From positions 1-64,000 of the forward strand of contig CANFRV010000015.1 of the NCBI GenBank assembly GCA_947449575.1: a stretch of 64,000 nt of DNA, given 5' to 3'. Positions 60,176-64,000 of this stretch are shown in pieces (position 1 is the first letter of the stretch; each line of letters begins with the position of its first letter). The notes beneath the pieces are model-generated. The model was not told the DNA's origin and did no database searches. It saw only the letters and a list, made by a program, of their open reading frames with translations. Origin of the DNA: Flavobacteriales bacterium. Its GTDB lineage: Bacteria > Bacteroidota > Bacteroidia > Flavobacteriales_D > Crocinitomicaceae. Both the position numbers and the translations under genes were made by a program.

Positions 60176-61846
60176 ATGAAAAAGCAACGTATCAACAAAG
60201 ACGCAATTTTTGCAGCAATTAATGCTATCTATCTTCAATCAGAAGGGAAAGTTCCAAATCCAGCTTTTTATGCAACAATGAAGAAAGAATTGTCTGTTTT
60301 GACTAAGTATACAAGACTTCCATGCGAAGAAGCATACATTTTTGCTATTATCTTCTACGTGAATCTTATGGGAGAAAGTTCAAATTTAAATGATTTGAGC
60401 AAATATTTTCAAACGAATACATTTTCGTTGCTAAGTATTATAGATTCCATACAATCTTTATGTGATAAAGGAATTGTGAAAAGTAAAAAACTACGTTCTA
60501 GGCATGACCATTTATTATTTAGTTACTCCTATGCTATTACTAAAAATATTAGTTATAACCTTTTAAAAGGTAAAGATTTCCCAGAGGTAGAAACAAAGAA
60601 TATTAGTGCTGAAATTGAATTAATTGAAGCATTTCATACGGTTGGAGTTCAGTGTATTGATGGTGAAATTCAAGTGATCGACCTAGAAGATTGTGTACAG
60701 GATTTACTTAAAACTTACTCTAATTTTGAAGCAGCTAAATTGGTGATCGATTTTAAATTATCAACGGAAGAAATTATCGTATTTTATTATATCATTTGGA
60801 ATACTTTATGTGGTCAAAATGGAATTGACATTGATAATTTACAAGGTGCTATATTTAAATCGCGCAGTCAGCAAGTGCTTTTTACCCAGTCGATGGTACA
60901 AGGAAATAATCCATTGGTAAAACACGAATTAATTGAATATGTAAGTACTGGTTTTATGAATAATTTTGAAGCTAGTCCATCGAGAAAATCAGCAGATAAG
61001 CTAGCGCAATTTGATGTAATAATTAAAATGCCTACTTCGCGCAGATCAACGGTGATTTTACCAGATTCGATAACAGAAAAGGAGTTGTTTTATAGTGAAA
61101 AAGAAAATCAACAATTGTCTGCCGTTAGCTCCATACTTCAAGAAGAAAATTACACTAAATTGGTGGATCGTATGACATCTAAAGGAATGCCTCAAGGGGT
61201 AAATATCTTATTGTTTGGCGCTCCAGGAACAGGGAAAACAGAAAGTGTATTACAGTTAGCCAAAAAATCTGGTCGTGAGATTATCAAAGTAGATATTAGT
61301 AATACAAAATCCATGTGGTTTGGTGAAAGTGAAAAAATTATCAAGCGTATTTTTAACGATTACCGAGAATACGCTAAAAAATCACACCTCTGCCCTATTT
61401 TGTTTTTCAATGAGGCAGATGCCGTTTTATCGAAACGTAGTAGTAATGGTTCAGGTAACACACAACAAACGGAAAATGCCATTCAAAATATCTTGTTGGA
61501 TGAATTAGAAAATTTTAGTGGGGTTTTTATGGCTACTACCAATCTAATGAACAACTTGGACAAAGCATTTGAACGTCGATTTTTATATAAAGTGGAGTTT
61601 TCAGTACCAACAGAAATACAACGCACACATATTTGGCAAAGTAAATTCTCTACACTAACGCAAGAGGATTGTAGTTATTTAGCAACTAATTATGAAATAT
61701 CAGGAGGACAAATTGATAATGTGTATCGTAAAGGTGAAATTAATTACATTCTAAATAACGAAGCAGCAAGCCTTGAATTGTTGGTTCGATTTTGTGAGGA
61801 AGAGGTAAATCATACGCAGAGTTATTCTCGGATTGGGTTTAGATGA
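60176..61846 (+). CDS. AAA+ ATPase with unknown N-terminal domain
   Basis: The 556-residue protein has a mostly helical N-terminal part of about 300 residues that I cannot assign, then one AAA+ module: Walker A GAPGTGKT (348-355), Walker B ILFFNEAD with Asn where the Mg-binding Asp is usual and E413 kept, sensor-1 ATTN, and the RR pair in AFERRFL as arginine finger. It may remodel or unfold partner proteins. The start at 60176 follows an AT-rich, C-poor leader. It converges with a Cys-rich/wHTH-like gene and a VWA gene that could be partners. Confidence 0.8.
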   Translation: MKKQRINKDAIFAAINAIYLQSEGKVPNPAFYATMKKELSVLTKYTRLPCEEAYIFAIIFYVNLMGESSNLNDLSKYFQTNTFSLLSIIDSIQSLCDKGIVKSKKLRSRHDHLLFSYSYAITKNISYNLLKGKDFPEVETKNISAEIELIEAFHTVGVQCIDGEIQVIDLEDCVQDLLKTYSNFEAAKLVIDFKLSTEEIIVFYYIIWNTLCGQNGIDIDNLQGAIFKSRSQQVLFTQSMVQGNNPLVKHELIEYVSTGFMNNFEASPSRKSADKLAQFDVIIKMPTSRRSTVILPDSITEKELFYSEKENQQLSAVSSILQEENYTKLVDRMTSKGMPQGVNILLFGAPGTGKTESVLQLAKKSGREIIKVDISNTKSMWFGESEKIIKRIFNDYREYAKKSHLCPILFFNEADAVLSKRSSNGSGNTQQTENAIQNILLDELENFSGVFMATTNLMNNLDKAFERRFLYKVEFSVPTEIQRTHIWQSKFSTLTQEDCSYLATNYEISGGQIDNVYRKGEINYILNNEAASLELLVRFCEEEVNHTQSYSRIGFR

Positions 61847-61855
61847 GTGACGGGG

Positions 61856-61880
61856 CATCGAGAGCCTCAGCCACCGTAAG
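61856..61880. repeat. Second REP-like element after the AAA+ gene
   Basis: GGCATCGAGAGCCTCAGCCA continues to CCGTAAG and shares TCGAGnGCCTCAGnnACCG with the rsmD-tail element at 55353-55371. Both lie by the sequence AGATGAGTGAyG: here it spans the AAA+ stop codon, in the rsmD case it follows the repeat. Confidence 0.45.
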
Positions 61881-61920
61881 GGAGAAGATTACTAGTATAA
61901 ATTAATGAGGTAGAGAGTGA

Positions 61921-62304
61921 TTATTTTGATTTAATATTACCTTCATTATTATACATATCAATTAATAAGATTAATTCAAGAATGTTTTGTTTACGCTTAT
62001 TTTGTATTGCTTTTAATTGATTATAGGAAGTACGTGATGATTCAAAAATAGAATCAGATTTAGTCATTTCTTTTATTTCTTGTAGATTATCTTCTTCAAA
62101 ATCTATCTTCAAAATCATTTTATTTAAATTATTTTTTCTAGTAGATTCAGATATTAAGTTAATCAGCAATTTGTCTTTGCTTTTTAAATAATCCATATAA
62201 AAATTATTGTCTACAGAGAACAAAAATTCATACAATTCTAATTGTGTTTTGAAACGTTTTTCGCCTTTACGCTTCAAGTATTTAATGATTACTGATTCAT
62301 CCAT
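61921..62304 (-). CDS. Small helical protein of unknown function
   Basis: I do not recognise this 127-residue, Lys/Glu/Asn-rich protein. It appears all-helical, with no signal peptide or membrane segment; YLKRKGEKRFKTQLELYEFL opens it and IQNKRKQNILELILLIDMYN ends it. It lies on the minus strand 113 bases downstream of the Cys-rich gene and converges with the AAA+ gene. It could be an adaptor in the same locus, which is inference from position only. Confidence 0.5.
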   Translation of the reverse strand: MDESVIIKYLKRKGEKRFKTQLELYEFLFSVDNNFYMDYLKSKDKLLINLISESTRKNNLNKMILKIDFEEDNLQEIKEMTKSDSIFESSRTSYNQLKAIQNKRKQNILELILLIDMYNNEGNIKSK

Positions 62305-62417
62305 TTTGTATATTTTTTTGTGAAATTTATTAAATCAATTATTTAACTTTTAAGTTTAAAATCTAAAACCAATTATTCTAACAACTCCCTTAAATTATTT
62401 TAAATCAAAGTATTACC

Positions 62418-63560
62418 TTACACAATTTCCACCCCTTCTCTATTCAATGGAATTCCATGAACTCCAGTTGGTAAGACCTGAATGTAATAATTTTCCGAAA
62501 GTTCGGTTCCTATTGCTTTCTTGAATTTACTTTTAATGCGTGATAATGTGGTGTGTAATTCTCCGTCCAAATAATTGACCAATAAACTGATCGTATTTTG
62601 CATTTCGTCTTTATTAAACCTTCCACTCACCTTTTGATAATAGGTAAACAATTCTTCGTTGTGGTCATGCAGCGAATTCAATGCAATTCCTTCCTTATGA
62701 TGTATGAATAAGAGGTATAAACTCAATTCTTTTGGGTTTAGTCGAACATCTAAGTTTCCAAAATCCGTCAAGAATATTTTTTTAGCGTCTAAATCGATTT
62801 TAATTCTGCTGTCTTTGTTAATGATGCCTATTCGTTTACGAAACATTAAATTGGCACGTATACCATCCATCACACTGAAAAGTTGGTTTAAATAATGTGG
62901 CGGAACATCTTTATTCTTCATGACTTGCATACAAGCATCACAAACATCTGCAGTTCGCATTTTAATCGTGATTTCTGTTTTGTTTTTACAAAAATCATTC
63001 ACACATCCAACCGTTTTTTTGTGAAATCTAGTGACAATTTCTTTCTGATTTTGACACATTAAACCACGTAAAACCCAAGTAGTGACTTCATAAGCTATAG
63101 GGTAACGAATATCTGTTCCATCTCCAAAAAACCATGGCCAATCATCCGTATGAATAAATCCTGTTCGCAAGGAAGGTCCTAAAAAAGCAAACCAATTTTT
63201 CTCATTATATTGATTCGTTAAGAGAAATACAAAATCATTTAAATCAACGTGTTGCTCATTCCGGTAGTATTCAACTTCATCGAACAGCTGTTTCCATGTG
63301 TAATATTTTTTCTTTAGAGGAAAAATTGGTCTTTCGTAGCGTTTCGTTGAATATTCGGACATTGAACACATTATATCTAATTGTTCTTGATGTTCAAACT
63401 TGGTTTTATTACGGAATATTTTTGAACCATATGGATTGTCCAATTCCACGGTACCACCGTCTACAAAATCGATGGTACCTGGATAAGCATTCAGTAAATT
63501 AAGTACATTTTCAAAATCTTCTAGTTGAAAATCGGCGGTACGAACTAAATATACTTTCAT
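62418..63560 (-). CDS. Unknown protein with Cys4/His cluster and winged-helix-like C-terminus
   Basis: This 380-residue protein is not assigned with certainty. Residues 1-130 form an alpha/beta part (MKVYLVRTADFQLEDF). Residues 150-212 contain PIAYEVTTWVLRGLM, H180 and four cysteines C186, C191, C207, C210 (GCVNDFC, then ADVCDAC), a likely zinc site; the layout recalls metzincin peptidases whose HExxH has decayed, but that is speculative. Residues 275-375 (LNPKELSLYLLFIHHKEG to LSRIKSKFKKAIG) resemble a response-regulator-type winged helix. The VWA gene lies directly upstream on the same strand. Confidence 0.55.
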   Translation of the reverse strand: MKVYLVRTADFQLEDFENVLNLLNAYPGTIDFVDGGTVELDNPYGSKIFRNKTKFEHQEQLDIMCSMSEYSTKRYERPIFPLKKKYYTWKQLFDEVEYYRNEQHVDLNDFVFLLTNQYNEKNWFAFLGPSLRTGFIHTDDWPWFFGDGTDIRYPIAYEVTTWVLRGLMCQNQKEIVTRFHKKTVGCVNDFCKNKTEITIKMRTADVCDACMQVMKNKDVPPHYLNQLFSVMDGIRANLMFRKRIGIINKDSRIKIDLDAKKIFLTDFGNLDVRLNPKELSLYLLFIHHKEGIALNSLHDHNEELFTYYQKVSGRFNKDEMQNTISLLVNYLDGELHTTLSRIKSKFKKAIGTELSENYYIQVLPTGVHGIPLNREGVEIV

Positions 63561-63602
63561 TGCAATTGGTTTTAATGAGTTAAATATAAGATTAATAAGT
63601 CA

Positions 63603-64000
63603 TTACTTTTTAGAGAAAAAGATTTTTTTAATGATCCCAGCTTCTTTACTACTCGAATAAGAACGTATATTATCATTGATATCAGCTGACATACACATAT
63701 AATCTGACTTATCAATATTAATGGTATTCTCCGATTTAATGTTCAACATTTGAGAAGTGTGTATAGCGTCAAAATCAGCTCCAATGAATGTAAACGTCCA
63801 TTTATTAGTACTTTCTAATGTAGCAATTTTTTGTGCTATATCGTGGTACGAAAAAAATCGAGAAGCATTTTCATGTCCATCCGTAATAATTACGAAAACG
63901 ACTGACATTTCATCGGATTCAATACGTTGATTATATTTCTCTTTTACCTCATGAATATTTTTTCCAATGGCATCTAGTAACGCAGTCATTCCTCTTGGAC
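63603..64000 (-). CDS. VWA-domain protein, N-terminus beyond the window (partial)
   Basis: The frame is open to the window edge: three codons (QRG) precede the internal Met at 63989, giving RGMTALLDAIGK, the MIDAS threonine loop of a VWA domain, so the first MIDAS motif (DxSxS) lies outside. FVIITDGHENASRFFS carries the third MIDAS aspartate and TFTFIGADFDA is the next strand. VWA proteins often pair with AAA+ ATPases to deliver or load substrates. It is upstream of, and co-directional with, the Cys-rich gene, gap 42 bases. Confidence 0.8.
   Translation of the reverse strand, partial: PRGMTALLDAIGKNIHEVKEKYNQRIESDEMSVVFVIITDGHENASRFFSYHDIAQKIATLESTNKWTFTFIGADFDAIHTSQMLNIKSENTINIDKSDYMCMSADINDNIRSYSSSKEAGIIKKIFFSKK

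Follow-up and report, generated by a model that had tools for sequence, protein, structure and literature searches.

The 64-kb window analysed here (positions 1–64000 of a 90,399-base contig from the 3.5-Mb genome of a Flavobacteriales bacterium) ends in two adjacent minus-strand genes, encoding a small VWA protein and a Cys-rich, regulator-like protein of 380 amino acids (aa), and comparison of their sequences and gene order across genomes strongly supports the view that these constitute a two-gene operon, conserved and unannotated in bacteria, rather than part of a four-gene machine. The 380-aa protein (62418–63560) combines a Cys/His N-terminal domain with a winged-helix-like C-terminal domain. 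The VWA gene (63603–64000) is cut by the window edge; following the contig past position 64000, as an earlier note on this stretch had recommended, shows that the gene is complete there (contig positions 63603–64238) and encodes 211 aa. That note had joined the two genes with an AAA+ gene and a gene for a 127-aa protein into a single multi-protein system. All four open reading frames (ORFs) are present where it had placed them, including the VWA gene interrupted by the window edge, but its guess, which was based on proximity, is corrected here: two of the four clearly form a unit (adjacent in 44 of 49 loci), the AAA+ gene is a loose neighbour at best, and the 127-aa gene, without a relative in the loci searched, is unsupported as a member.

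Matches to the 380-aa protein occur in 67 of the 299 genomes of the order, some of them partial and one with nine stops. The 49 full-length relatives that were examined comprise 45 from the order (from 44 of the 67 genomes, with the window genome contributing two) and four from elsewhere in the phylum. Forty-four of these 49 have a VWA gene of this type no more than 600 bases away on the same strand; it is upstream in 39 (assigned by script), in overlapping open frames in four and downstream in one (L120); L005 is the overlapping case that was checked, and there the VWA gene lies upstream (1511–2152, with the 380-aa gene from 2190). In addition, the identities of the VWA and 380-aa proteins correlate with r = 0.93 over 43 pairs, a value in which shared ancestry is uncontrolled and which is reached by none of 1000 permutations. 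Adjacency and correlation thus strongly support the link that the earlier note had drawn between the VWA protein and the Cys-rich, winged-helix-like protein. The window genome carries a second VWA/380-aa pair on another contig (L004:9816–11629), with no AAA+ or 127-aa gene in its listed neighbourhood. Among the 43 pairs, that of L005, from a metagenome-assembled genome labelled Chryseobacterium gleum, is nearest to the one in the window (identity of 0.80 for the VWA and 0.69 for the 380-aa protein), and the second pair of the window genome is far more distant (0.51 and 0.38). This pattern suggests that the VWA and 380-aa genes travel together. Weighing against such a linkage, the VWA gene is on the opposite strand in one of the 49 (L086), the sequenced stretch examined around four others contains no VWA gene (L082, L094, L121 and L122), and parallel divergence of the two proteins can follow species phylogeny.

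Within the N-terminal domain of the 380-aa protein (residues 1–245; 62826–63560, minus strand), the signature H180-x4-G-C186-x4-C191-x15-C207-x2-C210 (62931–63023, minus strand) is predicted to form a zinc site. Its spacing is identical in 49 of 49 relatives, so that the Cys/His site described in the earlier note is real, and H180, G185, C186, D189 and C210 are invariant across 18 diverse relatives. On the 23 members of the 380-aa family that were scanned, every Pfam and NCBIfam family stays below its cut-off. The 211-aa protein is recognized by Pfam VWA (3.3e-5, 24.6 bits with a cut-off of 23.8) over residues 10–175, with no effector domain fused C-terminal to the VWA domain, and the metal-site residues D13, S15, S17, T85 and D120, which make up the DxSxS...T...D pattern, do not vary among the aligned sequences (15 of 15).

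Small VWA proteins of this family are very common on viral contigs, where at least 502 relatives were found, and PHROG 7371 matches the window VWA protein at 4.6e-35. From these relatives 79 loci were retained (L173–L251), none of which contains the domains of the 380-aa protein within the stretches examined.

Profile comparisons and structure modelling weakly suggest that the N-terminal domain adopts an archaemetzincin fold lacking the catalytic HExxH. The idea arose from the spacing of the Cys residues and was recorded before any structure search. The motif of the archaemetzincins (Peptidase M54, AmzA) reads HEXXHXXGXXHCX4CXMX17CXXC in the available text of PMC3427221, and CX4C-X15-CX2C is present in 49 of 49 relatives, differing from the archaemetzincin Cys4 cluster in its spacing and in the motif Met. 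HExxH itself is absent from all 49 relatives and from the 18 diverse relatives, whereas it is present in all 13 M54 proteins that we chose for comparison from 25 M54 loci of the phylum. With no HExxHxxGxxH in the family, membership of M54 fails at the catalytic motif, but a domain that works like a dead archaemetzincin remains the leading reading. Likenesses include the CX4C...CX2C cluster, a His that aligns with the third zinc His and, by our own reading, the order of strands and helices in low-confidence models.

The likeness in motif may instead be convergent, and the domain a new zinc-binding fold unrelated to the archaemetzincins, which we regard as possible, although on the unlikely side. 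Two results count against an unrelated fold. The distant relative L129 matches Pfam Peptidase_M54 at 6.7e-4 (20.1 bits, below the cut-off of 24.4), and, in a structure model of the 245-aa relative L253 (rather than of the window protein; four sequences, mean pLDDT 57.4, pTM 0.52), the archaemetzincins 3zvs (Z 5.4), 4axq (5.3) and 2x7m (5.2) rank first, second and fifth of 870 aligned chains, with the 3zvs alignment taking in 146 of 158 residues. Z 5.4, however, falls in the range of unrelated folds. Comparison of N-terminal profiles with the 13 M54 proteins by hhalign gave p 0.016 for a first query and 0.04 for a second, and none of 19 unrelated control profiles did better than p 0.14 against the second query. 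These profile alignments span only 38–41 columns, and p was 0.15 for the TIR/membrane branch taken by itself, both of which would be compatible with a new fold, as would the incomplete correspondence of the Cys residues: the second M54 Cys is matched by C186, and C191 pairs with a Ser, leaving the first M54 Cys unpaired and the CX4C not position-matched. The archaemetzincin fold is further weakened by the missing motif Met and the presence of 15, not 19, residues between the Cys pairs, by the p of 0.084 of one control for the first M54 comparison (a VWA profile), and by the failure of all 23 members to match Pfam M54 at E 0.05. Nor was any PDB sequence match better than E 0.3 obtained with the whole 380-aa protein, with each half or with the diverse N-terminal alignment. 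With regard to the L253 model, NMDA-receptor chains score just as high (Z 5.3 and 5.2), the alignment tool warns that Z < 8 may reflect merely a common arrangement, and Foldseek returned nothing at E < 0.001, with 4axq 11th at E 2.0. AlphaFold2 modelling of the window 380-aa protein and one relative reached a pLDDT of 37 and was used just for the order of secondary structure.

We tentatively favour, with somewhat less than even confidence, a model in which the VWA protein and a pseudo-archaemetzincin/winged-helix regulator form a ligand-responsive two-gene regulatory unit. The upstream gene would provide a small VWA protein whose metal-dependent binding site is intact, and the downstream gene a zinc-type N-terminal domain, likely of HExxH-less archaemetzincin fold, with a winged-helix output. 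The inactive protease cleft, together with its Cys/His site, would bind a ligand, which may be a peptide, a protein or a redox or metal state, and the VWA protein would use its metal site to bind either the same ligand or the pseudo-protease domain. The resulting ligand-gated complex of the VWA and 380-aa proteins could then alter the binding of the winged helix to DNA at its putative targets. A precedent is CarG of Myxococcus xanthus, which the available text of PMC3427221 describes as an inactive archaemetzincin working in a transcriptional regulator, with Gln in place of the Glu of HEXXH. If true, the model would mean that a protease without catalytic activity now serves, together with a VWA partner, as a regulatory sensor, which would widen the CarG precedent. 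The N-terminal domain, so far uncharacterized and present in relatives alongside TIR, nuclease and probable membrane outputs, would in that case acquire a motif and a role open to experiment.

Alternatively, the pair could be a conflict (anti-phage) system in which the Cys/His domain would act as the infection sensor and the VWA/winged-helix complex would trigger or control the response, a reading that we consider rather unlikely but that draws support from the company that distant relatives of the N-terminal domain keep. One such relative is fused to TIR in another Bacteroidota genome (L128:982–2085; TIR_2 4.4e-28), and another, L129, is joined to an N-terminal Mrr nuclease (3.7e-11); L129 alone is a weak profile match (1.2e-4), yet has the HDETRGC motif in common. 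A relative of 463 aa (L123) is separated by one gene from a DUF4231/SLATT_1 gene, which is of the SLATT membrane type. Relatives of ~245 aa have at their C-terminus what, by eye, is probably a membrane helix (L124, L125 and L127), and mobilizable plasmids from Vibrio and Candidatus Tenderia encode similar ~245-aa proteins. Two relatives with a probable membrane helix are found on viral contigs, one as possible cargo of a contig with filamentous-phage-like genes (L172:6001–6750) and the other near the end of a contig with tail-like and lysis-like genes (L253:5001–5738), both judged by eye. Branches of the N-terminal domain are linked by a profile-profile match at E 1.4e-9. Of 296 genomes searched in the phylum, 12 match a profile of the N-terminal half, one of them being the window genome itself; a broader N-terminal profile, which is partly circular, matches 14 of 395. 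At E 0.001 a phage collection yielded relatives of neither the 380-aa protein nor a 245-aa protein, and viral contigs yielded no match for the 380-aa alignment. The window copy lies ~2 kb from a large defence-like island, and on the contig of genome G049 a 380-type gene has kinase, MoxR-like and DUF2201/VWA genes around it; this G049 island and the relatives with TIR, with a nuclease or on viral contigs favour a conflict origin. By contrast, no toxic effector domain is recognized in the VWA/380-aa pair, and the pair occupies contexts that are stable within lineages, which favours regulation over a mobile defence gene: a deacetylase-like gene family (by eye) lies within five genes of it in 14 of 41 loci, and in another lineage it stands beside genes read by eye as thyA/folA.

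A broader proposal, which we put forward as speculative and rather doubtful, is that the N-terminal domain is an undescribed protease-dead archaemetzincin with a general role in sensing or switching. Its outputs would be TIR, an Mrr nuclease and, on viral contigs and plasmids, membrane helices, and the Bacteroidota would have coupled it to a winged helix with a dedicated VWA partner. The domain would thus be a dead-protease signalling module parallel to the CARF or SAVED sensors. No account of a TIR-linked or pseudoprotease archaemetzincin was found in the open-access literature searched, although the domain may still be described elsewhere, and in the available text of PMC7159879 metzincin is mentioned only within the reference list.

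The defence-like island lies on the contig beyond the window (L003:10633–19983, L264:985–8258) and encodes a NERD/UvrD-type helicase, an SspA/DndA-like cysteine desulfurase (2.5e-139), a RadD/PbeA-like helicase, an MzaB-like ATPase and a PLD-like protein, followed, by eye, by a DUF262-like protein, a PAPS-reductase/DndC-like protein, a large ATPase and a DUF4007-like protein. It is possibly a phosphorothioation-type system. Further along the same contig is a retron-type reverse transcriptase, recognized by eye from its YADD motif (L264:11359–12348).

The C-terminal domain of the 380-aa protein (residues ~250–380; 62421–62813, minus strand) was described in the earlier note as winged-helix-like, which receives moderate support from two comparisons. 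With hhalign, seven OmpR-type domains of the same genome gave p 0.0011 over 38 columns, the best of 19 controls reaching 0.068, and the PADLOC CARF5--CARF profile matches nine of 23 members (best 7.4e-9). None of the 23 members matches Pfam Trans_reg_C, a point against a winged-helix output. Residues 240–362 of the window protein align to positions 211–330 of the 351 in the CARF5 profile, that is, to its C-terminus only; the likeness to CARF5-type proteins therefore lies in the C-terminal domain, whereas the CARF domain is unmatched, and membership of the CARF proteins was rejected. The same domain forms the tail of a DUF6804 protein from a Prevotella plasmid, in which the DUF6804 region appears membrane-like by eye, and most of a 199-residue protein from a Segatella plasmid. 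In the available text of PMC12669630 and PMC12825302, CARF-fused deaminases are placed in the CARF5 clade, and by analogy with these fusions the common tail may be an output or dimerization module. It is improbable that the domain instead mediates protein-protein contacts and that the pair acts as a chaperone or assembly factor rather than as a transcription regulator. A position behind a membrane-like DUF6804 region would be an odd place for a DNA-binding domain, and no Pfam match exceeds its cut-off; among the 20 profiles tried, however, the domain compares best with OmpR-type DNA-binding domains, and its occurrence in CARF5-type proteins also speaks against this alternative.

The AAA+ gene (60176–61846, 556 aa) is the only one of the four on the plus strand, the 127-aa gene (61921–62304) being on the minus strand with the pair. 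The AAA domain comprises residues 344–476 (PF00004, 4.1e-24). No family exceeds its cut-off on the ~300 residues before it, which the earlier note had called unknown, the best match being a sub-threshold SarA-type model (residues 31–111, 17.2 of 62.6 bits). The protein is IetA-like (PADLOC 1.5e-27), although the IetA profiles, whose ATPase is partnered in IetAS by the subtilase IetS, cover only residues ~283–543 and score 87.1 bits with a cut-off of 510; it also matches CdvC-type and CDC48-type models, and no MoxR model was among its matches at the E limits used. The MoxR/VWA-type partnership that had been suggested finds little support, given an ATPase that is IetA-like rather than MoxR-like, its opposite strand and the absence of the ternary gene order from the window.

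Relatives of the AAA+ protein were taken as a strong set (E < 1e-80; 16 of 299 genomes) and a wider set (E < 1e-30). The 380-aa gene is present in 11 of the 16 genomes with a strong AAA+ relative versus 56 of the 283 others, a comparison in which relatedness is uncontrolled, and within genus g2 in nine of 11 versus 13 of 33. Counting against a strictly two-gene view, AAA+ and 380-type genes lie on one contig within 10 kb in four of the 21 genomes that have both (wider set), where uniform placement predicts 0.16 (P 1.6e-5), and they are convergent in three of these four. The cases are the window, with one gene between, G049, with two, and G179 and G297, with more, so that order and spacing vary, and a strong AAA+ relative and the 380-aa gene are on different contigs in eight of the 11 genomes with both. 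In the conserved-neighbourhood check that the earlier note had proposed, the 380-aa gene keeps its VWA neighbour and the AAA+ gene shows co-location beyond chance in no fixed arrangement; the 127-aa gene has no relative in any locus searched and is unsupported as a system member. The four-gene system as first stated is accordingly rejected, while a loose AAA+ link may exist: the co-location may reflect shared variable islands, perhaps with a loose functional connection. That the AAA+ protein is a functional partner of the VWA/380-aa pair, in at least some genomes, is very unlikely, since the co-occurrence and proximity that favour it can be explained by shared defence-like islands, the ATPase is not of MoxR type and is found with other recurrent neighbours, and neither strand, order, spacing nor the 127-aa gene holds such a system together.

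These other neighbours, present near the AAA+ gene in seven loci (L096, L098–L100 and L102–L104), belong to clusters c6 (sigma-factor-like by eye) and c7 (an unknown protein of ~190–206 aa). The IetA-like AAA+ protein with its own ~300-aa N-terminus possibly forms with c6 and c7 a separate uncharacterized system.

On the other side of the pair, the next gene upstream of the VWA gene is DUF932-like (E 0.0027, under its cut-off). It was not counted as part of the system, as it is without a relative in the other loci examined and is set off from the VWA gene by a terminator-like hairpin (two hairpins found versus 0.9 expected in shuffles).

The G049 contig (L265:1–12082) carries a kinase-like gene preceding an IetA-like AAA+ gene, GGACT, a 380-type gene, DUF2201/VWA_CoxE, a MoxR-like ATPase and SAM-synthetase genes, and then a VWA/380-type pair. 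One of its two 380-type genes lacks a match to the C-terminal domain and lies beside the DUF2201_N/VWA_CoxE and MoxR-like ATPase genes, and the other belongs to the ordinary VWA pair. The additional neighbours (kinase, DUF2201/VWA_CoxE and MoxR-like) do not recur in the other 380-type loci examined. A SAM-synthetase-like gene near a VWA gene is also observed on three viral contigs (L210–L212).

In the VMAP ternary systems, the gene order is VMAP, MoxR, vWA according to the available text of PMC7159879, and this order is absent from the window. The VWA protein resembles the VWA component of these systems in its intact metal site, and a MoxR-like ATPase is nearby in G049 only. The window differs from the systems described in that text in having no MoxR ATPase, no fixed three-gene order and no VWA-fused effector, and membership was rejected for the window on these three grounds. 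General Pfam and NCBIfam scans of the 23 members, none of them aimed at these partners, gave no match to VMAP, iSTAND, FtsH or beta-propeller.

Like CarG, the 380-aa protein keeps a Cys zinc site, here a predicted one, is predicted to have lost protease activity and has a role, here a proposed one, in the control of transcription. CarG works with CarD. The 380-aa protein differs from it in that HExxH is wholly gone, a winged helix is predicted to be fused to the same chain, and a VWA protein would be the partner.

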